From positions 1-63,218 of the IMG/VR virus record IMGVR_UViG_3300010354_000088: a stretch of 63,218 bases of DNA, one strand, 5' to 3'. Origin of the DNA: a virus. The notes below the pieces were generated by a model. That model searched no databases, was not told the DNA's origin, and saw only the letters and a program-made list of their open reading frames with translations. The position numbers and the translations under genes are program-made. Shown one piece after another: positions 19,701 through 58,418 of the stretch. The first letter of the stretch is position 1, and the number at the start of each line of letters is the position of its first letter.

Positions 19701-22700
19701 GCTCTATAGATCTTCTAAAACTGTCAAAGTTATTCTCTCCTTTTGGAAGGAATCCTACATTTTTAGTAATAGAGTTAAATGCACTAATAACATTTTCAGG
19801 AGTAATAGGGGTTTTAGAACGTCTTGAAATGATATTACCACTTTCATCTTTAGAAAACTCACGATAGTCAAGAGAATTTAAAATAAGCCTCATTTGACTA
19901 GAATACCCTTTTACAGGGTTACGGCCTTCTCTTGTTGCAGAAGTAGATATAGATGATTGAGTAGTAAGTTCTGATACATCTAAAGTTCCAATATTTTCAT
20001 CAAGATCCGTATCTCCAAATTTATTACGAGCTTCTGCTGTAGTAAGGAGAATGTTTTGAGGAAATATCTTTTTAATGATAGGATCAAATACTTCCCTGAA
20101 ATCAGAATCTTTTCCTTTTGCCAATTGAGCGTATATATAAGCCCTTCTTACATCTTCAGATTTACTTGTAACTACGTCATTCCATGTAAGCTCATCCGGA
20201 GTTTTGTATGTAGGAATGGCTTCAGTAGCATTAGGATCAGATACGTTATAAACACTGTCTTTGATAGATTCGTACTTATTCATAAAAGCAGAATAAGACA
20301 TTTCTATAGCTTGAGGTATGTCACTTAATCCATCTTGAAAATAGAAAGGATCAAAAGACCTTGAAAGACGTGATTTAGTTACAATTTCTTTAGAAATAGT
20401 ATTTACAATGCCAGCTACGTTTTGTTCATTGCCAAATACTGTGCTAAGCTTTGAAATACCATTACTAGCTTTTTTATCTCTTGAAAGCTGCTTATTTGTA
20501 ACAAAATTCAAAGGATCTGCATCTGTTGATGGCTCAGACTCTTTTTGGTTAAACTCACTTAAATCATCAAATAGAGAATCTTCTTGTGCAGAAGAAAACT
20601 CATGAGAAGGCATATTATTAGTTCCAGGAGCTTCACCAGTCTTTTCAGTAGCAGATGGCCCTTTTACTTCATTAGATGATACTACAATTTGAGGGAAGTT
20701 TACATTCTTAACATCAGTAAACAACTGATCGTGAGAATTTACTGCAAATTTGCTTGATCCAGTAGTATTAGAAGAAGGGAAAGATCTGATTTTTACAGGA
20801 GAAGTATTTTCATCATAGTTTTTTTCAATGATGTCCTGAATACGCTGCATTCTTTCATAAGTAGCTTTAAGATCAATAGTCTTTGTGTTAGGATCAAAAA
20901 CCTGAACTTCATAGTTATTATATGACTTACCTCCAGCTACATCAGTTCTTTTATTAATTGAATAAAGGCTATTTCCTGTATTGTATTGATCAAAGAAATA
21001 TCTATTAGAAGTAATGAATCTATTTATGTCTTCATAGAATCCATTATTTCTAAAAGTATCATTGTCTTCAAGTCTCTTGGTATTACCAAAGTAATCTTTT
21101 ACAAATCCAACAGCATCTGCTTTTGACACTTGAGTGGATTTAATCTTAATCATTCCAACATTAGAGTTGTTTGAATTAGGATTAAGAGTATAATAGATAT
21201 AATATCCAGGTTCAAAAACTCTGTTACCATTCTGATCAGTGTATTTAGGTATTCTACTAGCTCCTAAACCTTGTTTACTTGGATCGTAAATTAAATAAGG
21301 ATCAGAGAAATAAACAGTTTTACCTTCCATCTCATGTGGATACCAACCATTTACTTTTTGTTTAGGTACAGATATTTGTTCTTCAACAGACTCAACCCCT
21401 TCTTTAGTAACAGTCTTTTTAGTCTTAGTAATTTCACTAATCTTCATCTCACGACCTTTTTCAGGAACGTAATTACCATTAGTGACTTTGTTAATTGCAA
21501 TGCTACCTAAATCAACAACTTGATTATCTCCTGATCCCGAAAGCTTTCTATAAGCTTCAACACGATCAACAAATCGCATTCTATTGATATTAAGCTCAGA
21601 TAACTTATCAGCATTTAATCCTTGAGAAGAATATAATCTATTAAAATAATCGGCAGGTGACTCTGTAGCAGGAACAGATGTTACATCCAATCCTCTGTAA
21701 GCTTCGTCAAATCCATATTCATGAGAGAATATAAAATAGCGACCATTTACAAGTGTAGGATTCTCAGTTCCAAAGAGCTCATTCTTAATCTTAGGATTTA
21801 CCCCTTCAAGATCTAATACATGGTAAATTCCATTTTGATATCTTTCAGAACTTCCTTCAAGAGCAAGATTATTGATATATATCTTACGCAGATAGTTGTT
21901 TATAGCTCTACCCTGACCTGAATTAGCAGCTATAGAATAAATATACTTTTGGAAGAAATTAGTCTTTTCTTTAACATATTTATCTTGAATAGCAGCATCA
22001 GAATGCATCTTTACAAACAAACTGCCTACTCGTGCATTTGCCAATGAATTTTGGTTAAATACAGCTTTTGTAAGAGTTTCATATTCTTTGCCCTGAGAAG
22101 GAGTATTTTCATCAGCAATAGACGTAATTTGAATACCACCGTCTTTAATTCCAGAAAGAATAGGATCATTCTGCTTAAAATCTTGAGGTTTAATCTCAAA
22201 AGTATTTACACCGTCCGTTACAGTTAAAAGTACATCTCCTGAGTTTTTAGCCTTTTTAATACCGCTTACAGTAAGCTGATTGCCGTCAGGCCCCATCATA
22301 GACTTACCAAAGTATTGATCAACAAATCCACCTTGACTATCTCCATCCCAATAGTCTTCATAAGAATCAATAGGAACAGGCTCAAAAACAACATTTCCAG
22401 GATTACTGCCTGAATATTGAGTTTGCTGGTTTACATTATTAGCAGCTTGACTTGCAGTAGGAACAGGAGGCTCTTGAACAGCAGGAGCTGGTTCTTTTAC
22501 TTCTCTTGTTAAATTAACCTGTTGTGTGGTATGAGATAAAATCTCATTAATAAGCTCTGGCTGTCTATTTGCATATTCAGTATAAGCTTCTTTAGACTTT
22601 TCTACATAATCACTCTTATCAGTAAATAATGTATCTACTTTTTGAGATACAACCTCAGATTCAGGTACTGTAGTAATAATATCAAGATAAGACTCAGCTC

Positions 22701-25700
22701 TTGAAGAAGCAGTAAGGAGAACCTTATGATAATCTGTAATATCAAAAATGTCTCCTTTTTTAATATTTACATATACACGTTCAAACTGAAATCCTTTGGC
22801 TGTTGTTTTATCGCCAAGCATTGTTCTTACAGAACCTTCAAGAACAGACTTGTCAATACCTGAACTAGACAATGTATTAATAAGCTCTAATCTATCAGCA
22901 TCTGTAGCTACAATAAATACAGTTTTTCCTGTAACGCCGTCTTTCTTTAAATCAGAAACAAAACTGTCAAGCTGCTCTTTTTGTGCTTTAAATTCATTTC
23001 CACGAAGTTTAACACCTTTTGTAGCATATCCACTTTCAGACTCAGAATATTGAGTAGAAGGATAAAGAATTTGAGCCTCTTTACCACCTTCAACGTAAGG
23101 CTCTCTAAATGCTTGCTGAATACGAACAATATCATAAACGCCTGAACGATGAACATCTGTAACAGGAGTTGTACGCTGAGATGTCAATCCAGGAGGAGTA
23201 AATGTTTCTCCACTTGATATTTGACTTTCATCAATAAGCTGAATAACCTTAAATCCTTTTTCTAAAGCTTGTTTATTAATAGTCTCTACTTGCTCTATTG
23301 TAAGTTCAGAAGCCTCGTCAATTACAAGAATACGGTCTTTAGTAGTATCAGTTAACTTATCTACTTTACCATTTAATACTTGTTCAAGAGATACAGATTC
23401 TTTATTTTCTGCATTTATTGATATAGACTCAATAGAGCTTTTTAGGTTTTCTACCTGACGAGAATGAGCTGCTGTAAATACAATATTAGAAAACTTAAAA
23501 GTAGTTGATTCTGCTTTTTTAACGGAATGATATATATCCATTATAGCAGGAAGCATAACTTTTGTCTTACCTACTCCGGCAAATCCAAGAACAGAAAGTG
23601 TATTTTCAAGGAAAGGAACAAGCTTAGCTGTTTTTGTTGAAACCTTAGCACCTGAAATAGAAGGATCCATTAAGAATGCAACTGATTCATAAACAGCTTT
23701 TTGCTGTTCAAAAGAAAGAGCTACATGATTAGGATTTTTAGTCTTAGAATACTCGTTCCAAGCATTGTATCTTTCCAAGAAAGATTTTGGAGATAAACGC
23801 TTGATATTGGTAATATTTTGAATAAATGTAGTATATGCATGAGCATTTAAACTAATATTATCAGATGCCAAACTAGACTCAAATTGTTGTACATCTCCGT
23901 AATACCAATATCTGTTATTTTCGTCTTTTACTTCTTTAGCTTTGGAGTTTACAGCTCCAAGAGCAAGAGGTTCAAGTTCAGTTCCTTTTTTGCCTTTAGC
24001 AAAAGTATTAGTAATATCTTTTACTAATCTTTCGTAAAGACCATTACCTTCTTTAGAATTAAAGATATCGTGTAGTTTACTTTCCGCAGATACTATATGT
24101 CCATAACTCTTATAAACAAGAGATGCAATTTCATCTTTTTTCTTATAATACTCTTCTTTTTCAGCATCAGAAGCTTCTCCACGGTTTAATTTATCATTAA
24201 GATCTTTTGCTCTATCTGCAACAGCATTTTGCTCATTTAAAGTATCAACGTATTTAATTAAATCGTCATTTGCAGACTGCAAAGCATCTTTAAAATCTTT
24301 AGAATAACCGCCAGTAATTATAGTAAGATGGTCAATAGTTCTTTGAGCTATATTATTTCTAAGATCAGCATCTCTTAATACAAAATTAGCATCAAACAAC
24401 TGTCTTGCTACAGAAGATATATTTAAAGCTTTGAATTTAAGCTTTATTGCTTTATTGAAAGACTCTACAAGTTTATTGTGTATGCTTCCTTTATTAGTAG
24501 GATCAAGATCAGATTTTAAAGGAGTAATGTTTTCATTAAGGCCGCTTACCTGATTATCAAGTTTACTATAAACAGTATCATTTATAGCAAGAATTTCAGC
24601 GTTAGATGCAATGTTATTTATAAGTTCATCAAGCATTGCAGCATCATTGGGATTAGAAAAATCGGATTGCTCCATTTTACTAAGAATATCCTCAAATGAT
24701 ACAAAACGAGGTTCTTCAGCAGTACCTCTGTTTACTGAAATATATGCATTTTCAAGAATTTGTCGTGGAGTAAGATTTCCTTTTTCAAATACCGAATTAG
24801 CATCAGCAGACATTTGTTCGTTAATAGAACCTAATTCTCTTAATGAATTAATTTTTCCTTTATATAAAGAATCAAATTCTGCTTTACTTTCACCAGGAAC
24901 GCTAAGAGCTACATCATTAATTGTAGCAGTTTCTTCATCATAATCAACTTTATATTTATCTGAAATCTCTTTCATTAATTGAGATTCCACTTCAGAATAT
25001 TTATTCTGAACTTCGTTAAGCATATTTTCAAATGCTGTCTTACCTAAAGCATCAACACCTACACGAAGATTACTATTATGAAGATTTTGTATTCTACCAA
25101 TTAATTCCGGAGTTACTCCTGCTTGCATATCAGCAAGAATAGATGTAAGCTCATTTGTATTTTCACCTCTTTGTTGTGCTATTACAGCAGGATCAATAAC
25201 CTTTTTTAAAGATTCATTTAATGCATCAACTGTATCAGAACCTACAGTAATAGCTTTATCCCCAAATTCTGTCTTAAATGAACTTACTTTAGGATTGAAA
25301 ATGTTAAATAAAGGATTTCCATCTTTATCTTTTGCTGAAAAATAATGAGCAGTAAGCATTCCGCTACGAACAGCTTTAGCTTCTACCTTGCTAATTCTTT
25401 TTTGCTTAGTAGCGTTTTCAACACGAACAGTTTCTTCAAAATCAGCTATAAGCTCAGTCTTTTTAGAAAGTTCTTTTTCAAGCTGAACACGCTCATTATC
25501 AGTAATTGTAGTGTCTTTAAGACGTTCTTGAATTTCATTTCTACGAACAATTATCTCAACAGCCTCTTTAGCAACTTGTGTAGGATCAATTACTTTATCA
25601 AGTAGTGCAGAATAAGATTTATCAAAATAATCTTTTAAATAACGTTTACCCTTGTCTTTAGCATTTTGATGCCATTGCTTAATGCCGGATTGTTCATAAA

Positions 25701-27825
25701 CACTAATGTAGCTTTCTAAAGACTTTCTTGCACTTGCGTAGTTTACATCATTTAATGATGCAGGACGCTCACCTGTAGCTGGATCTACGTCTTCAGGTTT
25801 ATATTCTTCTAAAGTAAGAGAATTGATGTTTTTATCACCAAACTCTCCAGCTTTATGCATGTTTTCAATAACATTGAAAATCTTATCTTGCTTACCAGTC
25901 ATTACATAGTCTGAAAGACTTCTGTTCTTCATAAGAAGTTCAGGATTCTTTCTTCCAGCTACATATTGATCAATACCGCCATGTAATCCCATTACAAAAC
26001 CAGTAAGGAAAGAATGACCAATACCTTCGGTAAGCTTTTCTCCTAATCCCTTTTTAGGATCATTGTATAGACCTTGACCTGTTTGAGTGTAAATTTCATC
26101 AGCATCAGGATTATCTTGTAAATACAAATAATCGCTAGTTGATGTAATAGCATTATTTACAATATGCAATGCTGCAAATTCACCCATTGAAATAATAGGA
26201 GAAGAAACAATAGGAGTTACATTTCCTGTTTTTTTAGCAAGATTGCTGATTGTCTTTAATACAGAAAACTTATTTGTACTTGCAAGTGCATTTGCACTTA
26301 ACTGAGATGCTTCTTTTCCTGTATTTTTTACAGTATTAGCTAATGTCTCTTTAAATATAGGAGCAAATGATTTTTGTACTACATTTTTAGCTTCTGCATT
26401 AGCAAATACACGTTGCCATAAAACACCTTCTCCTGGAGCAAATAATTTAGAAAATCTGCCCATTAACCCAAGTGTAGCAACCAAAGAAACTCCATATACA
26501 GCCGATGCTCTATCTTCGCTTACTCCAGCTTCTTTAGCTGCCTGGTTCATACCGTCAGCCATCATCAAACCAAAAAACACATGGTTTCCTGTTGAAGCTA
26601 TTCTTGCACCAATTTGTTGTGCAGCTATTTCAGAAGCTCCAGTAGCCTCAGCAATAGAAAGACCAGCAGGCATACTTACTCTTTTTAACAAAGCAGCTTG
26701 AGCAATAAGACCAACAAGAGATCCTGCTGTTCGCCATCCTTGCCCGTCAATACCTTGCAACTGTCTTTCAGACTCTTTAAAATAAAGCTGAGAAGACATA
26801 TTTTGCATTTGATTGCCTTTATCTTTTAACCAAGAAGGCATTACATTGGGAAGGTTAAGATTTTGAAATGCAGCATTACCTGTTGCCATTGACAACAGTG
26901 CATTAGAATTAGACATTGCTGATCCAAATGTACTCGGTACATTAAAAATCAAACTATTTAAACCTTCACCAAAAAAATCTGTAAGCCAGTTATTTCTAAT
27001 GCTTCTTGGCCCCCATAATGAACGTACAGCCGATCCTTTTAATCTATCTTCATTAGAAGCTGATTTCCAAAATGGAGTGCCAACCTCGCCTGTAATATCT
27101 CCCGTTTGATCATAATCTAATACAAGAGTTGGAACTTTAGGCATTGTTAAATAACCAGAAAATAAAGCATCTGTAAAATTTAAATCTTTAACAGCTTCTT
27201 TTTTCCATTCATCCATGGTAATCATCTTACCAAGATTAGGATCATAAACTTTACCTAAATCTTCAGCTACTTGTTCTTGAGATTTTATAGCCATAAGTTG
27301 ACCATAAGAATCAAAAGCATATCCTTTTGGTAAATAAACTTGATTTTGCTTTACAGTTTGAAATTCTTCAAATTTTCTTCCCATAGGAAGTTCTCCTTGA
27401 ATACTGTAACGCTGAGGGCGAGGATCTTCTAATTGCTTATCATTCCACGCATGATAAAGGTCTTCTTCTTTCTTTTCTTTAAAAGAATTGTAATCATTAG
27501 AAACAGTTTTCCATTGCTGTTCAAATAAATTGCGATCTCCTTTATATACATCATCTTTATAGATGTTCCAAGACTGCTCTTTATCTAAAGTAACAGTAAC
27601 AGGGCTTAATCCTTGTTTTTGACGATCATTATTTTCTTGATTTGAATATGCCCAAATATCTTCATCCTGAAGACCTCTTAACTTCAACCCAAAATAATCT
27701 TTTTTAACTACATCAGCAGCAGCAGGAGGAGCTTCGGGAGTAACAGGTATGTTAGCTACATTAGGCTGATATTTTTGATTTGTTTGATTTTGCGGATTAT
27801 TTGGATTTTGTGGAATAGGAGCCAT
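7753..27825 (-). CDS. Giant virion polyprotein: RNA polymerase, SF1 helicase, zincin peptidase
   Basis: A single 6690-codon frame. A Pro/Asn/Gln-rich N-terminus precedes hydrophobic, amphipathic segments near residues 365-480 and about 550, like membrane-active regions of ejected phage proteins. A P-loop GFAGVGKT lies at 1414-1421 and a Walker B with DEAS at 1503-1506. Motif V-like GFQFERVYV and motif VI-like LLTASSRAE follow near 1670-1700, giving a UvrD/Dda-type superfamily 1 helicase. DYDID at 4226-4230, within IIDGSDYDIDELHVY, matches the DxDxD metal-binding motif of the crAss-like phage virion RNA polymerase studied in phi14:2. HEMNHG at 5312-5317, with a downstream Glu in TREFVTEAF, is a gluzincin-type metallopeptidase motif. 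The last about 120 residues include another hydrophobic segment. Its position after two cargo-type genes fits an ejected protein that transcribes early genes. In relatives these functions are usually on separate proteins. Whether the chain is processed is unknown. Confidence 0.85.
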   Translation of the reverse strand: MAPIPQNPNNPQNQTNQKYQPNVANIPVTPEAPPAAADVVKKDYFGLKLRGLQDEDIWAYSNQENNDRQKQGLSPVTVTLDKEQSWNIYKDDVYKGDRNLFEQQWKTVSNDYNSFKEKKEEDLYHAWNDKQLEDPRPQRYSIQGELPMGRKFEEFQTVKQNQVYLPKGYAFDSYGQLMAIKSQEQVAEDLGKVYDPNLGKMITMDEWKKEAVKDLNFTDALFSGYLTMPKVPTLVLDYDQTGDITGEVGTPFWKSASNEDRLKGSAVRSLWGPRSIRNNWLTDFFGEGLNSLIFNVPSTFGSAMSNSNALLSMATGNAAFQNLNLPNVMPSWLKDKGNQMQNMSSQLYFKESERQLQGIDGQGWRTAGSLVGLIAQAALLKRVSMPAGLSIAEATGASEIAAQQIGARIASTGNHVFFGLMMADGMNQAAKEAGVSEDRASAVYGVSLVATLGLMGRFSKLFAPGEGVLWQRVFANAEAKNVVQKSFAPIFKETLANTVKNTGKEASQLSANALASTNKFSVLKTISNLAKKTGNVTPIVSSPIISMGEFAALHIVNNAITSTSDYLYLQDNPDADEIYTQTGQGLYNDPKKGLGEKLTEGIGHSFLTGFVMGLHGGIDQYVAGRKNPELLMKNRSLSDYVMTGKQDKIFNVIENMHKAGEFGDKNINSLTLEEYKPEDVDPATGERPASLNDVNYASARKSLESYISVYEQSGIKQWHQNAKDKGKRYLKDYFDKSYSALLDKVIDPTQVAKEAVEIIVRRNEIQERLKDTTITDNERVQLEKELSKKTELIADFEETVRVENATKQKRISKVEAKAVRSGMLTAHYFSAKDKDGNPLFNIFNPKVSSFKTEFGDKAITVGSDTVDALNESLKKVIDPAVIAQQRGENTNELTSILADMQAGVTPELIGRIQNLHNSNLRVGVDALGKTAFENMLNEVQNKYSEVESQLMKEISDKYKVDYDEETATINDVALSVPGESKAEFDSLYKGKINSLRELGSINEQMSADANSVFEKGNLTPRQILENAYISVNRGTAEEPRFVSFEDILSKMEQSDFSNPNDAAMLDELINNIASNAEILAINDTVYSKLDNQVSGLNENITPLKSDLDPTNKGSIHNKLVESFNKAIKLKFKALNISSVARQLFDANFVLRDADLRNNIAQRTIDHLTIITGGYSKDFKDALQSANDDLIKYVDTLNEQNAVADRAKDLNDKLNRGEASDAEKEEYYKKKDEIASLVYKSYGHIVSAESKLHDIFNSKEGNGLYERLVKDITNTFAKGKKGTELEPLALGAVNSKAKEVKDENNRYWYYGDVQQFESSLASDNISLNAHAYTTFIQNITNIKRLSPKSFLERYNAWNEYSKTKNPNHVALSFEQQKAVYESVAFLMDPSISGAKVSTKTAKLVPFLENTLSVLGFAGVGKTKVMLPAIMDIYHSVKKAESTTFKFSNIVFTAAHSRQVENLKSSIESISINAENKESVSLEQVLNGKVDKLTDTTKDRILVIDEASELTIEQVETINKQALEKGFKVIQLIDESQISSGETFTPPGLTSQRTTPVTDVHRSGVYDIVRIQQAFREPYVEGGKEAQILYPSTQYSESESGYATKGVKLRGNEFKAQKEQLDSFVSDLKKDGVTGKTVFIVATDADRLELINTLSSSGIDKSVLEGSVRTMLGDKTTAKGFQFERVYVNIKKGDIFDITDYHKVLLTASSRAESYLDIITTVPESEVVSQKVDTLFTDKSDYVEKSKEAYTEYANRQPELINEILSHTTQQVNLTREVKEPAPAVQEPPVPTASQAANNVNQQTQYSGSNPGNVVFEPVPIDSYEDYWDGDSQGGFVDQYFGKSMMGPDGNQLTVSGIKKAKNSGDVLLTVTDGVNTFEIKPQDFKQNDPILSGIKDGGIQITSIADENTPSQGKEYETLTKAVFNQNSLANARVGSLFVKMHSDAAIQDKYVKEKTNFFQKYIYSIAANSGQGRAINNYLRKIYINNLALEGSSERYQNGIYHVLDLEGVNPKIKNELFGTENPTLVNGRYFIFSHEYGFDEAYRGLDVTSVPATESPADYFNRLYSSQGLNADKLSELNINRMRFVDRVEAYRKLSGSGDNQVVDLGSIAINKVTNGNYVPEKGREMKISEITKTKKTVTKEGVESVEEQISVPKQKVNGWYPHEMEGKTVYFSDPYLIYDPSKQGLGASRIPKYTDQNGNRVFEPGYYIYYTLNPNSNNSNVGMIKIKSTQVSKADAVGFVKDYFGNTKRLEDNDTFRNNGFYEDINRFITSNRYFFDQYNTGNSLYSINKRTDVAGGKSYNNYEVQVFDPNTKTIDLKATYERMQRIQDIIEKNYDENTSPVKIRSFPSSNTTGSSKFAVNSHDQLFTDVKNVNFPQIVVSSNEVKGPSATEKTGEAPGTNNMPSHEFSSAQEDSLFDDLSEFNQKESEPSTDADPLNFVTNKQLSRDKKASNGISKLSTVFGNEQNVAGIVNTISKEIVTKSRLSRSFDPFYFQDGLSDIPQAIEMSYSAFMNKYESIKDSVYNVSDPNATEAIPTYKTPDELTWNDVVTSKSEDVRRAYIYAQLAKGKDSDFREVFDPIIKKIFPQNILLTTAEARNKFGDTDLDENIGTLDVSELTTQSSISTSATREGRNPVKGYSSQMRLILNSLDYREFSKDESGNIISRRSKTPITPENVISAFNSITKNVGFLPKGENNFDSFRRSIERAMEATQPKEGNEASNQYNILSTIYDAFFRDSFPGEFGFYDPSTQGEYSYYDWIKNPDKILERINSDAQYRDVVLPEGVSLEELFNIKRNFANYALNEFFAVSGSANQISYQNDLYIPIDGSIRVFRPKRNTVSDIKDRIAKNMTTSLFDIFDGVATIKGNKVNRVSDIYLVDYVENGEPKSMSLREHEINDLRIRQERGEIQNLKQSKTPQDGYRIDDSGIYITNKGGGEKQIIKRTATAGEFMYEFADPSDFGGNKKNVSDILEFLGISKYDISGKTINTYLYGLANKTQINGIYSEPLSYEVDSSTLARMLHDGLSKLKIGFENKDLDFDTVNIDNENTDGSSELQLPIMEWKYRQDLAIVESFNRSTSVSNYFTSPSGERKYTIQNSSFLVDRISSPYTESDLNTKISDVFINDFQNRVSQFGEAAFENNPYYNLTYQFAYNPLYNGGSQEYVVRGQYVGDGAKRASVGKGVSQYSPTEIINSNIANYIEGLASAKKDGSGTSRYGTYYQYAVPHPVTGDSSKIFYIQYSVDKKSNASPIIIKDGNVSKNQKASAQTNWDYFSYSFTRELQKLRRDQVQSLDTFVSEFQRFINQSAGTPLEAFFADPTISLALTGRLETGKEGFLSKYNRNKLDLLDNPQEVQDFIDEVINSNATVKEAFMDFLNKSSSVSEYKHYKFVDYKDSQGNVLKEFGKRVFAGNSIRYKTTDAVTGNTMDPIFLLDNYKAIQKVFADNGLDIDSVLFESNSTGTNKINNENVNKELKKIFKNAFSRRIDSYVSSLFKNQVKVDQRTKPFFTFEGENFDGNNIEKAGFVKVVKRFTPEEWTALSENEKQNYLDNYYLNRRYNDKENYTFKEYNPFYESYVLAFANHGNHITDLTIGDKNQYPSYSSYAIRSYQITTPGLHYTIKPYGIGVKATQKAAIYNDSNMKSINRIAKLLGGSKTDSTTRVDGLEFQVGIDGIIQQFSLGQNIVKNAFGHKKEIHNQNDIVTGQRILMKSSTMNLKPYRKNSREIMDIERKMMSHVNFIDNGQSITLWNKLEEFGMDDAKLVDWMFEGGSARQVSTEDGRIIDIRDTYLSRLMPTTVAKTINGASVIDINAERYGEESTFDMDYNTRLYVLDLNKEARDQKASNPTQASTTLFVGQNNYNRTAESMSAMVENVSRVSDDISKSTESSTDVKSFVADRTKVAVGNRMEILNDPRFGTNLPGLTDPVRIAFANEFNKGIKPEIKSASSNVQYPGELVEMLTLTTDIGPYKAGKRMTLAQYDKFIQKYPDAANSFTKDNEGLRAMKAYVKSGDQFVDVESFDYLKDILTPEQIAENFADVDGVMTMVKTPDITPEQRNKIVSDIKQSGGKIEPYEVVMSFTNFRKFGLDDNPNSEFYYKKFDADDFVTLRLRDGSEVMYEDLGSSPEDRRMALAGLLNQLEGSLASDVLMKDNKIELSKNGEIKDRYQFADSMANYMEAFILTRDAFINRVPASKSSSGFKGKIVAFDNDISNTILVSSKKNIIDGSDYDIDELHVYHLDLPNYGENLLMGSSSGKIEEGEYESIYQKNPVNVVIKNAIDHYNDVDNLTSVTSPVSTDQFESVYEQIRENMLKKGNVSSIQAVKFLNDVVTNTRQFESFNAGVETPGIFANGIKVYSHIYHAFSKVKGDHFNINLLGKNYRRFFNIDPVTGVDSGHLTMDSLAGLLQAAVDNGKLDLLGRLRIDPTTASAAMAMKFAGVSDMEIVEFLSDYKVSNIINDIKAGRDIDEKSRNSQKVATSWMNMAETYKARIFELNETLKITTDVKKRNEIIKSFLEEVDNISKVFGTKSRYIPRKVLKSEADKAAENQEMAEIAENGGIKITSESSAKEELELDESIEYDLNRTIEWLNDYSQKARHVADVMALGRGLSKLAKVFSVNQGVKFGDWDTYDYLENLNELVRPDEYIRFYEKRSQKAMISGIEREIDIPSEYDLAKRENDLFKSFVNTEKLINKLPNIKSFINAWVDFDNKMQKVQTVQNPVFRNLDKAFLNQARKPRFYNKDEYGSAMSARWKVISTMYLEKYGDVVGLKNRINPNEVENVGTPTGQLEFIITTHDLIRDMQTNPGKYELTPGTLVDSEGNITNSFLKDVTVEVKENQDEYINLRDLNRADESYVGKLKDDLQAIYNITGIDLGKRLSVYSIITDGGIVRKGSVMSIVNKDNLVQYDDFLNEMNVWLNTDKRLDPKASNIYADNIAMRYGGNNADRLAVHMLGNLPSITKDSNTKNDFQLNEVQDKEGRIVYKGGLIPIYRTSVNQNAKDIADFPDYVQAWTPISGHITGKSAEFTEAYSTKKYLGAFKKVKIEDPEIVQGASKENPVYRYVRIDNKVSNMLSGWTKNSVAQEVFGIDNMHKSLHIVSMNRIKDLMNTGRTSINPNEITNLFTDVGRKYNNGFYYLKNGQIVELTKFQREGKTGFSLSIKNLQSANANHSEGVSADAEFSSADIIDFAERKRFIDSANGSDISNYNRQLNIDYLGMNDQVDVLRHVSENSLYMPHALLAKAMLDSYSSKKLSIGNIEFLSEIQNPGLFSMKDRPTKMGGVWRPVKDSEGRVIKYDIFINTDEADNSVKTERFVLHEMNHGITADVLQRFEKNQKLTNDERTYAQYITKLYEYTKSKSANKDFEYPFKNTREFVTEAFTHKSFQQHLMTIPAMNPEVAKMGIKDVWREFVSAVKNFFFSTAGANIQRTPEMESVFDEIMSVSSVYLEGDSMFEIALKDTYLENQMARVFNTDAEFSKANEEKGTPNEDQLKAYYGVGFKVDKVNDNVDLVSAMARTDVRQATNDVNNENAVNQLSNAIFTGMSYSYNNHGNYRFVSNGKVYELENLNNRDQIKDIAREIISKRGEYESKIKGQFRDYLMGADPQFDKNIESNKGWIKRKFAINPNDKISLLSDSGFNSSLFDTKTFDPFVVVSERDGIKYVSLMDMTTAYLNQRLTPSGNVEYLADFISKIDPTKIYENKFSLLKTQEGMRKFNLMLLAMSMKAKDPSIVFEKMSVIKPDGFHSESYDIAFHDYLKEMEYLLKSRVVYDIMSPELKALVDNPESFKAPEVNYVKSLLSAYHDLKERYFKQAEDNNEIPSQLIDKYEDIISRIQTKAHGHDIFSADVERVIINRINEIKRYYKNDEGKIVNNEEMKYLSDALFQIKTKGQKSIEKLTDIDSLGKYSLLNYNIGNPVFDMYRTDIMSAIETGKNRYMAHMKKMNALISDINKKYVNGLNGVIGGGTTVSLTDVGYKRFDRLFIKQKATDNLGNTYDVNTYYIHNSKNPRTIEALKKYEISKEEVALGDYIVETLKEAIITKKVNSGMKREDAENQYDANWKDGMVPIMQRRASEKIFSKDWRKGLSQWASKYSNSNNFFEYVNDAAKQGGTDFMDIFSNQLGDSYLGSVDRMSKIGLFIDNGAIKVFGSTEQEIKSSIEANENQVEKNLEVVMAYYMMNHYQKQEVDKTNAVYYAAQTLMHNYESKHSDQSTEGRLTNLREYMRKMAKFNVLGQRERMKGGLKVNTGSKVVDVKYDDMIRMTGAATSVGVLGGNILADFKNLMTNTLTLQSFAVSNSIAGAKNFYGLGDVNKAIALYSTNPKLAIALAFQYKMAGMDRSNLLNNERHFKTKKYLFSDRMLYMGQFAGDYLIRTLSMMAHMNKKGVLDAYSLDKEGNLVYDETKDARIYKEGKMTEDGKLLKVELLKNMQNEGVYDGDVSVDAKLPRAFDNRLRDSVKTITDKFITGGAYDDATALTLDAHSIGTMFTMFSKYLFDKAQNLYKEGYESSAIGDYIIKDVTIDNVTKKNVVFEGEYMEGLIQSVMGIYREARKTFQGVEYDGLIDMWKKQKDIRKMNISRVLHDAAISSMFLAILPALFNNDDENQNQYWRSLMSSPIGKSMNYSMLDLISGYSPNEYYSKAKEPFFAITQAGKYAEFIAASCSLDVDQMDKAAEKAFGLYKTSQVLTGNLSTGKPKK

Positions 27826-29834: not shown

Positions 29835-32186
29835 TTAAATAGTTCCAGGAGTAACTCCGTTTTCTTGAATAGGTGTAACTAATTTAGAAGGATCAAAATT
29901 ACCGCCTGTAATAGCATTAATTCTTTGAACTTCTTCGGGAGTAAGCTGATCAGGAGTATTTAAAGCTTTTCGATAAAGCTGTTCGTTAATTTGACCTGCT
30001 TTATATCCTTGCTCAAGAGCCTTCATTCCAAAATCAGCATTAACATAATTTCTAAATCCTTTTAATCCAGATTCAATATTTTGACTTAATGCCTGACCTT
30101 TCATAGCTCTAAACTTAAATCTGTTTTCAGCATCCTGAAGATTAACATTTTGAATGTTCTGAAGATTAAGAAGATTAGCCTGATTAGTCAATTCTGTATT
30201 ACGATAGTTAAGCTCATTTTGCATTTGCTGCATTTTAGCTGCTCTATCTATTTGATTTTCAAGCTGATTAGCCTGAATAGCTGCATTTGTAGCAGGTATT
30301 TGATTTACATTACGAGCATTATATCGTGATGTAGCTCCTACTTTTTGAATTTGACGATTCATAAATTCATCCAAAGCACCAAAATCAGCAGTATATTTTT
30401 CAGGACGATACATCTGAGGTCTTGGCATTGGAGTATATTTTTGCATCATATTATAAAGAGCCTGACCACCTGCACCTACTGTATTAGCAATAAGAAGATT
30501 TCTATTCATTTTTTTAAAATCTTCAGGCAATCCTGTAGTTGTGCTAGTTTCAGGTGTTTCAGCAGTAGGCTGCTGATTATTTCTCATATTAATTTCTCTT
30601 TCAGAAGAATAATCGGGATCATTAAGTTGAGCTTCTTCTTCTTTACGCATAGCTTTCATTTCTGATGGACTATAATTTTCATCACGATATTGTTGACTAC
30701 GCATATTATTATACCACCAATCGGCTATCCCTCCATCTGCATGTCCTTCTTTAGCTTTTATTTTACGCTCCTGCTCAAGCATTTCTTTTGTAGGTTCTTT
30801 TCCGGAACCTTTATTTGCACGCATATTATCCCAAAGACCTCTGCGTGAATATGAGCCATCAGCACGTTTAATCATTTCTCCGCCTTGAGAATATTCATCA
30901 TTATTGGGGCCACCATTTTTAAATCTTCCCATAGCAAATAATGTAGGACTAAGCTTTTGCTTATTCATAACATTATGCTGTTCGTTTACATATTGATTAG
31001 TTCCTTGGCTATCCCATTCTGAAGATTCATTTTCAGACATGTAATCTCCTTTATAGTAACGATTATGAGGACTATTTGGACTAAGAGTTTTTTCCCAATC
31101 GTGCTCTGTCATCCCCATATCTAATTGAAGATCTTCTTTTACATCAGGAGATATATACATTTCTTTTGAAGATATACGAATAGGAGTACCTCCTTGCTTA
31201 GCACCAGGAACCATTGTTTCTAACTCTTGATATGGATCATATCCTGATTGCATAAGCATTTGTTGAGCTAAAGGAACACGGTTTGCCGGAACAATAAAAG
31301 CACCATCTTCTGCCAATAAGTTTTTATCATCAGCAGTTGGACTTCCATTTCCAGGAATAATACCATATTCATCTTCCATGTCTCCACCTTCTGCATATCC
31401 ACCCATAGAATATGGAGCTGATGAATTATTTAATATGGCATCACGTTCAATAGAATACCCTATACCACCACCGTCAGCATGTTTTAATTCAGGATACTTA
31501 GCATATACTTTAGCTTTTACATCACTACGACCATGAAGACCAGCAAGACGTAAAGCATCAACCGCATCGGCTTTAGTTGGAATAGGATAAGAACGATTTC
31601 CTCCGGCAAAATCTTTGCCTTTTACCATAGGATACGGTTTCTTTTCAGATCCATAATCTTTAGATCTTGAAAGTCCACCTTCTTTATAAGCCTCAGATTC
31701 TCCGCCACCTTGCTGATTATTATTTTCATCCATCTGAAACTGAGAAGGATCATCTCCAAGCATTTTCCAAATAGGAACTTTGCCTCCATTAGCAAAGTTA
31801 CCTTGCATGTAACCAGTTTCTGTATTATAAGGAGATGCTTGACGTTGCTGTTTTTTTACAGCTTCACCCATCATAGCATTTACATCGTAACTATTATCCA
31901 TAGCACGATTAAACTTCCATGCATCAATAGCTAGTCCAGCTACAGGAGCAATAGCAGCAGAAAGACCTCCTGTAGCACCCATAATAGCTGGATTTAATCC
32001 AATAGATGTAAGTTGTTTTGTAGTAGAAAGATCGGCTTGAGGGCCCTGCATCATAGGCATTTGCGGTTGCATCTGGTTGGGCATAACCATGCTGCCATTA
32101 GCATATTTTTTCTTAGGCAGATTTCCACCTGCCATATAATACAAATTAGCCATGTAAAATAATTTTACTTTATCTTCTGGTTTCAT
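29835..32186 (-). CDS. Probable cargo virion protein with repeated GG motifs
   Basis: A 783-residue protein. The N-terminal third has a hydrophobic Ala/Gly-rich segment (GATGGLSAAIAPVAGLAID, about residues 53-72) that could insert in a membrane. At least eight short motifs ending in Gly-Gly preceded by an acidic or Asn residue are scattered through it (for example FANGGK, YKEGGL, HADGGG, YAEGGD, FKNGGP, HADGGI). One segment reads LLAEDGAFIVPANRVPLAQQ. The C-terminal 250 residues are Gln/Asn-rich and predicted helical. Its ATG overlaps the ferritin stop by four bases. The position between muzzle/ferritin and polymerase matches crAss-like cargo proteins that pass down the tail with the DNA. The role of the GG motifs is unknown. 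Confidence 0.55.
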   Translation of the reverse strand: MKPEDKVKLFYMANLYYMAGGNLPKKKYANGSMVMPNQMQPQMPMMQGPQADLSTTKQLTSIGLNPAIMGATGGLSAAIAPVAGLAIDAWKFNRAMDNSYDVNAMMGEAVKKQQRQASPYNTETGYMQGNFANGGKVPIWKMLGDDPSQFQMDENNNQQGGGESEAYKEGGLSRSKDYGSEKKPYPMVKGKDFAGGNRSYPIPTKADAVDALRLAGLHGRSDVKAKVYAKYPELKHADGGGIGYSIERDAILNNSSAPYSMGGYAEGGDMEDEYGIIPGNGSPTADDKNLLAEDGAFIVPANRVPLAQQMLMQSGYDPYQELETMVPGAKQGGTPIRISSKEMYISPDVKEDLQLDMGMTEHDWEKTLSPNSPHNRYYKGDYMSENESSEWDSQGTNQYVNEQHNVMNKQKLSPTLFAMGRFKNGGPNNDEYSQGGEMIKRADGSYSRRGLWDNMRANKGSGKEPTKEMLEQERKIKAKEGHADGGIADWWYNNMRSQQYRDENYSPSEMKAMRKEEEAQLNDPDYSSEREINMRNNQQPTAETPETSTTTGLPEDFKKMNRNLLIANTVGAGGQALYNMMQKYTPMPRPQMYRPEKYTADFGALDEFMNRQIQKVGATSRYNARNVNQIPATNAAIQANQLENQIDRAAKMQQMQNELNYRNTELTNQANLLNLQNIQNVNLQDAENRFKFRAMKGQALSQNIESGLKGFRNYVNADFGMKALEQGYKAGQINEQLYRKALNTPDQLTPEEVQRINAITGGNFDPSKLVTPIQENGVTPGTI

Positions 32187-32746
32187 TTAAAGTCAAGATC
32201 AAGGAATCTCATAGCCATCTTATCTTCACCAAATGTTTTAAGCTTATCCATGTAATTTTGGACTTTACCCAATTCTTCTTGTTGCTCTTGCATATATTTC
32301 ATAGCAAGTTGATAAAGAAGATGATTGTTATATTTTAAAGAATGCCCAGCTAAAGCATTACATTGCTTAGTCACATTTATTTCATGTGAAAAAGTCATTT
32401 TAATTATTTCTGGAAATCCCTCAAAATTTTGAGGAGGCTCATTTAAACTTGGAATTTTAGGCTGAATGCCCATGTCCAAAAGAAAATCTTTAGCCCATTG
32501 AGCATGTTTCATTTCATCTTCAGCATCTTCTTGCCATTTTTTTGCAGCATTTAAATAACCATTGTCATTTAGCCACATAGACATAGAATGATACATACGA
32601 GAAGAATATTCTTCTTGCTCAATTCTATAATTCAACAAATCTATACATTCTTGAGAAAGAAGATTGTTGTTTTCTGTGTATTGCTCTTTTGGAGTGGCAG
32701 ATCCGCCTTTTTCTTCAAAAACAATTTTAGAGTTGTTGTCTGACAT
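32183..32746 (-). CDS. Ferritin (non-haem, FtnA type) encoded in the tail module
   Basis: A 187-residue protein. After a charged 28-residue extension it aligns by eye over its whole length with bacterial ferritin FtnA. All ferroxidase ligands are present: Glu46 (EEYSS, equivalent to FtnA Glu17), Glu78 and His81 (AEDEMKHA; Glu50, His53), Glu122 (SHEINVT; Glu94), and Gln155 and Glu158 (QEQQEEL; Gln127, Glu130). Third-site positions carry Asp77 and Glu154. Ferritins oxidise Fe2+ with oxygen or peroxide and store it in a 24-subunit shell, which also limits Fenton damage. It abuts the muzzle gene by one base and overlaps the cargo gene, so it is co-expressed late with virion proteins. It could protect phage DNA late in infection, hold iron, or be packaged; no virion-targeting signal is apparent apart from the N-terminal extension. 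Confidence 0.9.
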   Translation of the reverse strand: MSDNNSKIVFEEKGGSATPKEQYTENNNLLSQECIDLLNYRIEQEEYSSRMYHSMSMWLNDNGYLNAAKKWQEDAEDEMKHAQWAKDFLLDMGIQPKIPSLNEPPQNFEGFPEIIKMTFSHEINVTKQCNALAGHSLKYNNHLLYQLAMKYMQEQQEELGKVQNYMDKLKTFGEDKMAMRFLDLDFK

Positions 32747-47896: not shown

Positions 47897-49768
47897 TCAG
47901 TTAAAATTTATACTCATTGAACCATTATTACTTGTCTTGTAATGAAAGAACTCCATCTTTTTTTCTGTCTTGGCTTTAACCTGAATATTTAAATCGTCTT
48001 CTTCATGAACAATGCATAAAGCAGAAGAAATAGTTATATCGCAGTTATATCCTTTTTCATCTCTAAAGTTAATGGCTGCTATAATTTGATCTATATCATC
48101 CATCTTCTCTACGTTCTCTTTAATGTATTCTCTATACCTTACAAGCCAGTATTGTTTTGTACTTGGGTCAATACCCCATTTATTATTTACTTTAGAATCT
48201 TTTACGTTAGCATAAGCCACACGAGGTCTTTCTTTTAAAAAATGAGAAAGATTGTTTTGCTCATACCATTTGAATATACCAATATTACTCCACTCAATAA
48301 GATTCGGAGCCATATAATAATACGACAACTTCGCTGTCATTTCATAGAAGTCATCAGCTTTTTTAGGGCGATCCGTGATGCGTGCAATAAATTTTCTGGA
48401 TGTTGAGTTTACGTCCTTGAATGTTTTAAAAACCTGACAAGAACCCTTAGATGAAGAAGTGTTTGCCTCATCTTTATCATACGAATCCGTTGCCGCTTTA
48501 TAAAGGTTTAAATAAACATTACCTGATGGATCTTTTTCAGGATGCTCATATATAATGAACTTGCCAGTTACCTGATTAGCTATCCATTCTATCCCAACGA
48601 TTTTTCCCAGAGTGTCACGAATCCACTCAAGATCGCCCTTTTGTGCTTTATTTAAAAGCTCACGATTATTTCTAATTTGAGCTAGTCTTGAATTTAATCT
48701 TCCAATATCAAACATATTACCGCCTGTACGCATGAAGCATTCTTCAGGTGTAAGTGGCATTTGTGTAATTACCTGAATCCAGTTAGAAGGATCCTTACTT
48801 TGTTTTGCCTTTTCTCTGTTCTTTAAAATGTAATCAATGCTTTCTTCTTTCTTTGAATTACCATCTTCATCAATAACAGCATATTTCCATCCTGGAACAA
48901 AATAACAAACCTTTGTATCTGAAAATCCTTCACCCCATGAATTATCATATGACATCATATCATATGTTTCAGGTTTATAAAAGATCTCTTCAAACTCATC
49001 AGCACCAGAAGCCATTTCACCTCCGGTTCCAATCATAATAGCAAAGCCTGTCTTTACAAAGTTAGCCTCCATAGAAGGCTGTAAATATCTATATGTAGAT
49101 ATAATACCTGGAAATTTTCCCGATTCTTCAAATAATGCAAAGCTCGGAGACTTACCTACAGTAGCCTGTGGATTATTCTTACAAGTGATGTTATATATTT
49201 CAGACATTGTTCCTTTTTTAATGGCATGTCCGTTTTCTATAACCTTATAAGAAGCTTGAACATAGTCAAGACCATCAGGCAATCTTCTTTTGAAAAATTC
49301 AGTGTCTTTAAGAGATGTTAAACCTCTAAGAACCATTCTCATAGTAGCATTTGAATACTTTTCTTCACCAGCAAGTATTAAACTTTGTGAATGAGGAAAG
49401 AAAGTAAACTCTTTACCTACTAATGATGCGGTCTTTTCAGAAAAACCTACCTGACGACGCTTGGCAACACATAAATTCTTTCCGGCATTTCGTGCTTTCT
49501 CTACTTCATGGAAAAATTCATAGTCCATATCAAGAAAGCGTGGTGTAATAAGATCCTTTCGGCCAGTCTTTTTGTCTACACCTCTTATCTTCCAAAAATT
49601 AAGATAGAAATAATGATCACCAGTAATGCGAATACCCCCTACATCATAACCCTCAATACAACGCTTACGTTGCTCTTCCCACCATTCCTTATACTCATAG
49701 GAACGTGGATGAGCACGGCATAAGCCCTCATTAAATACGGGAGAGAAATATTGAGTATTAATAAACAT
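47897..49768 (-). CDS. terL: Terminase large subunit
   Basis: A 623-residue packaging motor: an ATPase that pumps DNA into the procapsid, plus a nuclease that cuts the concatemer. The ATPase part has a basic Walker A variant at about residues 102-113 (AKRRQVGFSEKT) and a Walker B at about 209-216 (SFALFEES), with the catalytic Glu next to it. MIGTGGEMASGADEFEE probably includes the coupling motif. The nuclease half (about residues 400-600) has acidic clusters in ATDSYDKDEA and YNCDITISSAL, consistent with an RNase-H-like fold. It is in the canonical order TerL-portal and shares one base with the 68-residue gene before it. It ends in TGA, evidence that TGA is a stop here. Confidence 0.9.
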   Translation of the reverse strand: MFINTQYFSPVFNEGLCRAHPRSYEYKEWWEEQRKRCIEGYDVGGIRITGDHYFYLNFWKIRGVDKKTGRKDLITPRFLDMDYEFFHEVEKARNAGKNLCVAKRRQVGFSEKTASLVGKEFTFFPHSQSLILAGEEKYSNATMRMVLRGLTSLKDTEFFKRRLPDGLDYVQASYKVIENGHAIKKGTMSEIYNITCKNNPQATVGKSPSFALFEESGKFPGIISTYRYLQPSMEANFVKTGFAIMIGTGGEMASGADEFEEIFYKPETYDMMSYDNSWGEGFSDTKVCYFVPGWKYAVIDEDGNSKKEESIDYILKNREKAKQSKDPSNWIQVITQMPLTPEECFMRTGGNMFDIGRLNSRLAQIRNNRELLNKAQKGDLEWIRDTLGKIVGIEWIANQVTGKFIIYEHPEKDPSGNVYLNLYKAATDSYDKDEANTSSSKGSCQVFKTFKDVNSTSRKFIARITDRPKKADDFYEMTAKLSYYYMAPNLIEWSNIGIFKWYEQNNLSHFLKERPRVAYANVKDSKVNNKWGIDPSTKQYWLVRYREYIKENVEKMDDIDQIIAAINFRDEKGYNCDITISSALCIVHEEDDLNIQVKAKTEKKMEFFHYKTSNNGSMSINFN

Positions 49769-56987: not shown

Positions 56988-57111
56988 ATTGTATATAACA
57001 TACAAGTGTATATTAAAACGATCTATAAGAGAGTTTCAATACCTTGGAACTAAACTTAAATCACAGCCAGATAAATATGCCATATGGTGTAAGGTGGCAC
57101 AAACAATTTAA
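56965..57111 (+). CDS. Very small hypothetical protein
   Basis: A 48-residue frame (MLSLESAKLYITYKCILKRS..., ending in CKVAQTI) starting inside the end of the 90-residue gene, after AAAAGGACAAAA, one of the few purine-rich Shine-Dalgarno-like leaders in this region. It is basic and helical. It stops ten bases before the most natural start of the next gene, which supports it as a real coupled gene and not a chance frame. Function unknown. Confidence 0.4.
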   Translation: MLSLESAKLYITYKCILKRSIREFQYLGTKLKSQPDKYAIWCKVAQTI

Positions 57112-57120
57112 TCCAATATC

Positions 57121-57376
57121 TATGTACAACTCATATAAAGAAATAAATGACCTTGAATCTGAGGTCAAGAAATATACAGATACAAAGATTATGTCTCTAA
57201 TTGAAAAAGAATCAGAAACATTCCAAGTATATGTAGAGAAAATTAGAGCTGAAATATTTCAGAGAACAGGAGATATTACAGTTAGCGTGCATGGACAAAT
57301 AGCTGATGAGATACATTTAATTGTATTAAAAGAAGTATCAAGGCGATGGGTAATACTAAAAGAATGCATCGAGTAG
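57121..57376 (+). CDS. Small helical protein upstream of the radical-SAM gene
   Basis: An 84-residue, highly charged, helical protein (MYNSYKEINDLESEVKKYTD..., VSRRWVILKECIE). The region KIMSLIEKESETFQVYVEKI and the following residues look like a continuous helix able to form a coiled coil. In-frame starts also exist at 57044 and 57077, but both would overlap the preceding small gene, so I prefer 57121. It overlaps the radical-SAM gene by 31 bases, so the two are probably co-translated. It could be a partner of that enzyme; no motif proves it. Confidence 0.45.
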
Positions 57377-58221
57377 ATAGAAAGTCTGTAATTATACGTC
57401 CTAGTGGTCGCAGTACAGATTATATATCTCCCAGCTTTGGATATGGATGCGTGTTTAATTGCAGCTATTGTTATATGAAAAGACATAAACCAATAGGTCT
57501 TGACATAGCGGACAATACAGAACACATACTGTCTGAAATATATAGCCATTCTATGTTTGCTGATGTATCTAAGCCAAATCAGACACATGAGAAATATATC
57601 ACATATGATATCTCATGCAATGAAGATTTCTCAGCTCACCTTAAATACCATAACTGGAATAAGATATTCAGGTTCTTTATGGATAATGACCATATTATGG
57701 GCAGCTTTGCCACTAAATATGCCAACAAAGACCTGTTGTTCTTTAATCCTCAACGTAAGATAAGGGTAAGAATGAGTTTGATGCCTCAGATATATTCACA
57801 TGCATTAGAACCAAACACAACTAGCATAAAGGATAGAATATCATTCATCAACAGCCTTTATGAAGCTGGATATGATGTGCATATTAACTTTTCTCCTGTA
57901 ATAGTTTATGATAATTGGCTTGAACACTATGAACAACTGTTTGTGGATGTAAACAAAATAGTCAAAGACAATTACAAAGAACATGTTAAAGCAGAAGTCA
58001 TATTCCTGACTCACAACAAGAACAAACATGAATACAATCTGAATAACAATATCTCCGGCGAATATCTATTACATAATCCTGATATACAGGAAGACAAGAT
58101 ATCTCAATATGGAGGTAATAACATCAGATATAAAGCTTCTCTAAAAGCTAAATACATTAAAAGCTTTATTGATATTCATGATAAGATTATTCCTTGGAAC
58201 AAAATAAGATACATCTTTTAA
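57346..58221 (+). CDS. Radical SAM protein, spore photoproduct lyase-like (SplB/COG1533)
   Basis: A 291-residue protein. C35-x3-C39-x2-C42 in FGYGCVFNCSYCYMKRH is the radical-SAM iron-sulphur motif in the form typical of the spore photoproduct lyase group (GC...C.YCY). YDISCNED places Cys91 49 residues after the last cluster cysteine, close to the spacing of the hydrogen-donor cysteine in Bacillus SPL (Cys97 to Cys141). VHINFSPVIVYDNWLEHYEQL matches the SPL family segment with consensus 'h.DP.I.Y..W...Y..L'. Family enzymes use a 5'-deoxyadenosyl radical to reverse a thymine dimer in DNA; some relatives have other substrates. The protein lacks the longer N-terminal region of sporulation SPL. 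A role in phage DNA repair or base chemistry is inferred. Confidence 0.8.
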   Translation: MGNTKRMHRVDRKSVIIRPSGRSTDYISPSFGYGCVFNCSYCYMKRHKPIGLDIADNTEHILSEIYSHSMFADVSKPNQTHEKYITYDISCNEDFSAHLKYHNWNKIFRFFMDNDHIMGSFATKYANKDLLFFNPQRKIRVRMSLMPQIYSHALEPNTTSIKDRISFINSLYEAGYDVHINFSPVIVYDNWLEHYEQLFVDVNKIVKDNYKEHVKAEVIFLTHNKNKHEYNLNNNISGEYLLHNPDIQEDKISQYGGNNIRYKASLKAKYIKSFIDIHDKIIPWNKIRYIF

Positions 58222-58223
58222 CA

Positions 58224-58418
58224 ATGAAATACTCAATCTTTTCATTTGCAATATTCTTTTTATTGCTATTCTGTATTCTTAGATATGGATCAAGAAACAG
58301 AGATAAACCAAAAACTATTCCCATTTATTACAAATATAAAATAGACTCAGTGGATAGATATCATGTAGATTCAACAGGTAAATATTTATTGAGATACAAC
58401 GGAGACACTGTTAAATAA
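58224..58418 (+). CDS. Small membrane-anchored protein
   Basis: A 64-residue protein with an N-terminal hydrophobic helix (MKYSIFSFAIFFLLLFCILR, residues 4-20) and a polar C-terminal part of about 40 residues (YYKYKIDSVDRYHVDSTGKY). I chose the ATG at 58224, two bases after the radical-SAM stop, over an upstream in-frame ATG at 58194 that lies inside that gene. No lipobox motif is clear, so it is probably a signal-anchor protein with the C-terminal part outside the cytoplasm. Function unknown; membrane-linked exclusion or host takeover are possible. Confidence 0.5.
   Translation: MKYSIFSFAIFFLLLFCILRYGSRNRDKPKTIPIYYKYKIDSVDRYHVDSTGKYLLRYNGDTVK

Follow-up and report, generated by a model that had tools for sequence, protein, structure and literature searches.

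A short viral relative of spore photoproduct lyase in a crAss-like phage record: a probable DNA repair enzyme of the phage's own that needs no light

What might a phage do with a relative of spore photoproduct lyase (SPL)? The window analysed here (the whole stretch of DNA, a phage record of 63,218 bases, taken as a fragment) contains an open reading frame that a preliminary description had read as an SPL-like radical SAM enzyme in a phage of non-sporulating Bacteroidota, on the strength of a C-x3-C-x2-C motif, an SPVIVYDNW segment (residues 183-191) and a cysteine, Cys91, at about the spacing of the hydrogen-donor cysteine of SPL. The frame, the motif, the segment and the cysteine all proved to be as described (Table 1), and the phage setting was borne out: PHROG head/packaging families were hit by the terminase, by the portal and by the major head protein, and of 50,697 phage records 150 are related through the terminase, with crAss-like phages at the top and phages of Bacteroides, Flavobacterium and Cellulophaga further among them, which makes a host among the Bacteroidota likely. 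No named family, repair genes included, was found among the scanned neighbours of the SPL gene in this record.

Table 1. Features of the window, with SplB-like genes of cellular loci in the last row (locus handles precede their coordinates)
Feature	Position	Strand	Basis or remark
SPL-like radical SAM gene	57346..58221	+	291 aa, ATG start M1
C35-V-F-N-C39-S-Y41-C42-Y43: CX3CX2C [4Fe-4S]/SAM motif and two tyrosines (Bs Y97, Y99)	57448..57474	+	alignment to SplB; invariant in viral rows
Cys91 codon, equivalent of hydrogen-donor Bs C141 / Gt C140	57616..57618	+	alignments; Cys in all viral rows
S183-PVIVYDN-W191 segment (SplB: APIYIHDGW)	57892..57918	+	alignment to SplB
Upstream ORF, 110 aa, overlapping the SPL gene	57044..57376	+	putative co-transcribed early gene; no PHROG match
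Downstream ORF, 74 aa, overlapping the SPL gene 3' end	58194..58418	+	
Terminase large subunit, crAss-like	47897..49768	-	PHROG match; related phage records
Ferritin-like protein	32183..32746	-	within virion structural block; Pfam Ferritin 9.8e-20
Single 6690-aa ORF	7753..27825	-	among structural genes
SplB-like gene beside TIGR03886 gene	L094:3536-4612, L097:3535-4614, L105:5961-7037, L110:5859-6929, L149:3421-4524, L153:5845-6936		

To which radical SAM group does the protein belong? Its best NCBIfam profile is TIGR03886 ('spore photoproduct lyase family protein'; E 4.7e-85), followed by TIGR04070, the profile of true SPL (E 3.4e-21), and only then by those of Rv2578c and PA0069 (E 2.5e-4 and 3.4e-4), two radical SAM proteins for which the names SplB and COG1533 are also in use and to which the match is weak, local and far below the cut-offs. 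The score against Pfam PF20903 (SPL) is 75.5 bits, above the curated cut-off of 27 for the SPL superfamily, and a phmmer search of PDB sequences at E <= 10 gave five matches, all to Geobacillus SPL; PHROGs offered one family of unknown function only (E 1.3e-6). The protein is thus of the SPL type, as had been proposed, and a chance match is excluded. At the same time it scores below both NCBIfam SPL cut-offs, that of TIGR03886 (437.55 bits, against 285.8 for the phage protein and 291.7-318.8 for three viral relatives) and that of TIGR04070/SplB (400 bits, against 75.6), and we therefore file the gene, by these sequence scores, as a viral variant within the SPL superfamily that belongs to neither family.

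The match to TIGR03886 begins at profile position 63 and reaches the C-terminus, so that, in contrast to the cellular proteins of that family (to which identity is about 34-51%), positions 1-62 are absent. A frameshift truncation of this copy was ruled out by the equal shortness of all viral relatives, and on that comparison the missing stretch of about 60 positions is a trait of the viral family. These relatives begin at about residue 6-7, for which reason M7 (57364) is plausibly a likelier true start than M1.

Predicted structure led to the same place. A model from 42 phage sequences (pLDDT 77.7) had SPL as its best match at Z 21.9, against 12.2 for the runner-up, and one from 56 phage and cellular sequences (pLDDT 93.6, pTM 0.91) has the SPL fold, superposing on Geobacillus SPL 4fhf with Z 30.4 and an rmsd of 2.2 A over 281 residues; the match spans chain residues 49-341, so that the phage protein lacks about the first 48 residues of its Geobacillus counterpart. 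The next fold, pyruvate formate-lyase activase 3c8f, reaches Z 14.4. Could the protein instead modify RNA or protein, in the manner of RlmN/Cfr or of a maturase? The general radical SAM fold is common ground, but we think this very unlikely: maturases, RlmN/Cfr and viperin gave no PDB sequence match at E <= 10, where SPL alone was found, and their structural Z stays at or below 14.4 against 30.4 among the matches listed; nor was any precursor peptide or maturase named among the scanned neighbours. Closer kinship to maturases or RlmN/Cfr, which with lack of a donor cysteine had been named at the outset as the finding that would tell against SPL, was rejected on NCBIfam ranking, PDB phmmer and structural Z among the matches listed, SPL being best in profiles, PDB and fold alike.

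The catalytic residues can be followed one by one. The only cysteines of the 291-residue protein are at 35, 39, 42 and 91, and phmmer, hhalign and a MAFFT alignment that included B. velezensis SplB agree in equating C35, C39 and C42 with Bs C91, C95 and C98, Y41 and Y43 with Y97 and Y99, and C91 with C141. In hhalign, 42 phage proteins matched B. velezensis SplB with probability 99.1 (E 4e-19), residue 91 being paired with 141, while phmmer paired Cys91 with Gt C140 (Ala in the mutant chain 4fhe); what had been put as a cysteine 'at about' the donor spacing is therefore its exact alignment partner. In SplB the hydrogen very probably comes directly from C141, while Y99 belongs to the chain that carries the radical back to SAM, a chain tuned by Y97 (PMC3742179); equivalents of all three are present in the phage protein together with the CX3CX2C motif. 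The four cysteines are found in 157 of 157 virus rows, the phage copy included, and Y41, Y43, N92, E93, D94 and K124 are also invariant (158 virus rows, counting the duplicate L001). One SplB residue is not kept: Ile117 is aligned with Gt G167, and most aligned viral relatives have Ala there. The equivalent Gly168 (Bs) is described as a peripheral residue, and SplB with Arg in its place is some 80- to 90-fold slower (PMC5368176). Compared with SplB of Bacillus and Geobacillus (TIGR04070; PDB 4fhc, 4fhd, 4fhf), then, the phage protein shares the fold, CX3CX2C, both tyrosines and the donor cysteine, but is only about 22% identical, lacks an N-terminus of about 50 residues and, judging from its phage setting, would lie outside sporulation control.

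How widespread is the gene among viruses? One scan of IMG/VR confirmed 409 relatives and a second, profile-based scan at least 447, of which 80 were kept from each, with contigs partly shared between the two; the set examined comprised 156 viral loci encoding 108 distinct SPL proteins, short (about 285 aa) and 61-69% identical to the phage protein. In the 50,697 phage records the phage SPL protein found one weak match (MT835770, 21.8%) and SplB found two unannotated gut scaffolds, while searches with a TIGR03886 protein from Bacteroidota and with a second viral copy led to the same single scaffold. Among the 27 viral records of at least 40 kb, 20 have a relative of the terminase of the crAss-like record, 23-38% identical, and its major capsid protein has a recognisable counterpart in only one; from such divergence it follows that one SPL gene is common to several distant phage lineages.

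The preliminary description had called for a phylogeny of the phage proteins. Our tree (quick IQ-TREE, SH-aLRT support) has 84 rows, namely the phage copy, 27 of the 108 distinct viral proteins, 54 of 80 cellular loci and two outgroups, after nine cellular rows had been left out whose frames were broken, or far too long or too short, and 17 more had been thinned away by taking every third. The 28 viral rows form one group (SH-aLRT 95), adjoining the NCBIfam TIGR03886 proteins, and L088 joins them at 100. This last is a 5.2-kb contig filed under a Bacteroidetes MAG; its other ORFs resemble viral neighbour proteins, and it is probably a phage contig.

Pairwise dN/dS (Nei-Gojobori) has a median of 0.12 and a maximum of 0.30 over 345 viral pairs, which are not independent of one another, and the viral gene is under purifying selection. 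Gene decay was rejected on this median. That the gene should be a non-functional passenger is accordingly an extremely improbable reading, and one that would also have to accommodate catalytic residues invariant in 157 virus rows and a single monophyletic clade running through phages with widely differing terminases.

The viral genes, for their part, lie in a replication and repair neighbourhood. Their neighbours are on the same strand upstream in 100 of 105 cases and downstream in 98 of 102, and (clusters being named from one representative each) the commonest clusters within 10 kb of the SPL gene include one of SF2 helicases, at 44 of 108 loci, and one of the UDG superfamily, at 38 of 108 (30 of the 58 loci with at least 6 kb downstream), with DnaB-type helicase, ClpS and primase clusters less common at the same distance. 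Attempts to name the commonest neighbours gave two weak matches of unknown function. Neither a photolyase nor UvdE was found in the 27 long viral relatives, so that the gene has no known UV-repair companion there, an absence that is weak since the records may be fragments.

TIGR03886 proteins are borne by Deinococcus, Actinomycetota, Alphaproteobacteria, Bacteroidota and Myxococcota, and many non-sporulators, Bacteroidota included, have genes of this type. Within Bacteroidota such a gene is scattered rather than general, as in an even draw of 395 genomes there were 19 matches at E <= 0.001 but only four of at least 300 bits, three of them above the cut-off. COG1533 may lump several SPL-type families, so papers on its SOS regulation need not concern TIGR03886 itself. 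With that reservation, the preliminary description found SPL without sporulation odder than it is, because SPL-family genes are already known as SOS or UV-response genes in non-sporulators. Published work describes splB as SOS-regulated in alpha- and beta-proteobacteria (PMC3323433), SplB/COG1533 as an SOS gene in Bacteroidetes, with a UDG pair within the same regulon (PMC8565304), an SPL-family gene of Curtobacterium as induced by UVC (PMC12029717), and splB homologues in D. gobiensis and D. deserti (PMC3314630). In the open-licence literature (bioRxiv preprints excluded) we recognised no account of an SPL encoded by a phage or other virus, and found in that literature no activity data for any TIGR03886-type protein.

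A scan of 84,980 species genomes confirmed at least 583 relatives, and the statements that follow concern the best 80 of these (L088-L167). Besides L088, the nearest are short proteins of 291-294 aa (42-51% identity) from Paracaedibacteraceae (Odyssella), Rickettsiaceae, a Burkholderiales MAG, Cesiribacter and Lewinella, and then come full-length Bacteroidota proteins (42-47%; Rufibacter, Spirosoma, Mucilaginibacter, Flavobacterium sp. SUN052 and others). The short proteins of Paracaedibacteraceae/Odyssella, Rickettsiaceae, Cesiribacter and Lewinella resemble the phage protein in length and in having the donor cysteine, but differ in having CX3CX4C in place of CX3CX2C in the eight tree rows (a two-residue insertion, in the short cellular L089-L093, L099, L119 and L129). 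The SPL-like gene of Rickettsia tamurae (L128) looks decayed; its frame begins only within the Fe-S motif region, and Tyr stands in place of the donor residue.

At the position of Cys91, these 80 genome loci have Cys in 43 cases, Glu in 34, and Tyr, Thr and a gap in one each; the motif GENSD or GENGD occupies it in L082-L084 and in 34 of the 80. On the tree (71 Cys, 13 Glu) the difference requires a single change. Phages, Bacteroidota and Myxococcota keep the cysteine, whereas many cellular TIGR03886 members have Glu: a Deinococcus plasmid copy, the majority of the Actinomycetota and Alphaproteobacteria at the loci examined, and also cyanobacteria. It is therefore unsafe to take Glu-type 'SPL family' proteins for spore photoproduct lyases, and published claims of SPL identity for them may need testing. 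A Streptomyces plasmid carries its TIGR03886-type gene directly after a cryptochrome/photolyase gene.

What, then, does the phage enzyme do? It retains every catalytic residue known, and its gene is met again in many uncultured phages; on these grounds we take it for a probable DNA repair enzyme of the phage's own, working without light. In a fuller form of this proposal, which by analogy with SplB we hold with moderate confidence, an N-terminally short SPL relative would reverse UV-made thymine photodimers, without light, in incoming phage or host DNA. After infection the enzyme would scan DNA and flip out a thymine dimer; C35, C39 and C42 would hold the [4Fe-4S] cluster through which SAM is cleaved; the 5'-deoxyadenosyl radical would take H6 from the dimer, whose C-C bond would break; Cys91 would give a hydrogen back to the thymine methyl radical; and Tyr43, tuned by Tyr41, would relay the radical back, so that SAM is remade. 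With the whole SplB catalytic set kept, the first candidate and most likely substrate would be spore photoproduct (5-thyminyl-5,6-dihydrothymine) or a close relative. The predicted fold, the catalytic residues, the purifying selection and the replication and repair genes near the viral copies speak for this proposal, as do the SOS and UV-response genes of the SPL family and the cellular TIGR03886 genes that adjoin an SplB-like or a photolyase gene. Against it count the scores under both NCBIfam SPL cut-offs, the replacement of the Gly168 equivalent, the lack of a photolyase or UvdE in the 27 long relatives and that of a named repair gene among the scanned neighbours in this record.

The main rival for the substrate is another thymine dimer. 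More broadly, direct reversal of a lesion other than spore photoproduct (a different thymine dimer, say, or an oxidative thymine adduct) is a possibility of lesser but appreciable weight, suggested by differences in the donor-site motif (viruses SCNED, SplB SCTSD, Bacteroidota GCNSD) and by the cellular loci in which a separate SplB-like gene with a donor cysteine adjoins the TIGR03886 gene, as if their substrates differed (6 of the 56 with readable neighbours); against it stands the full conservation of the SplB catalytic set in the viral proteins. The two-SPL locus recurs in Bacteroidota, a cyanobacterium and Roseomonas. A tblastn search with eight class-I SPL proteins detected no second SplB-class gene in 161 viral loci and the phage record, nine rows running into the same SPL gene.

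Phages often modify thymine, and the usual 5-hydroxymethyl-dU route needs a gene of the thymidylate-synthase family. The gene might therefore have been taken, as the preliminary description suggested it could, for one acting on a modified base, as an SPL-scaffold radical SAM maker or trimmer of modified thymine or another base in phage DNA, and thymine is indeed bound by the SPL active site (PMC3742179). This we regard as unlikely: every virus row retains the donor cysteine and the Y41/Y43 pair known from dimer reversal, no recurrent modification cluster appeared among the neighbour families displayed, and the thymidylate-synthase family occurs in only two of the 27 long relatives, whose records may be fragments, a count on which the thymine hypermodification route was rejected.

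To return to dimer reversal, why should phages be exposed to such a lesion? Dry DNA and DNA in the A form favour the formation of spore photoproduct (PMC3949526). A doubtful conjecture is that packed phage DNA is spore-like, so that sunlight would produce spore photoproduct in it instead of, or besides, ordinary dimers, and that many environmental phages carry a dark-acting SPL by which these lesions would be cleared on entry. If this were true, the capsid would correspond to the core of a spore, and spore photoproduct would be a lesion of virions in general.

Direct reversal by SPL has so far been tied to spores and to a few desiccation- or UV-tolerant bacteria. If our reading is right, common uncultured phages would own a light-independent direct-reversal enzyme for thymine dimers, and the formation of spore photoproduct in packaged DNA would become a testable question. 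The short viral enzymes, with all catalytic residues in about 285 aa, would be handy minimal SPLs, and the donor position would give a rule for annotating the cellular 'SPL family', by separating a donor-Cys type from a Glu type.
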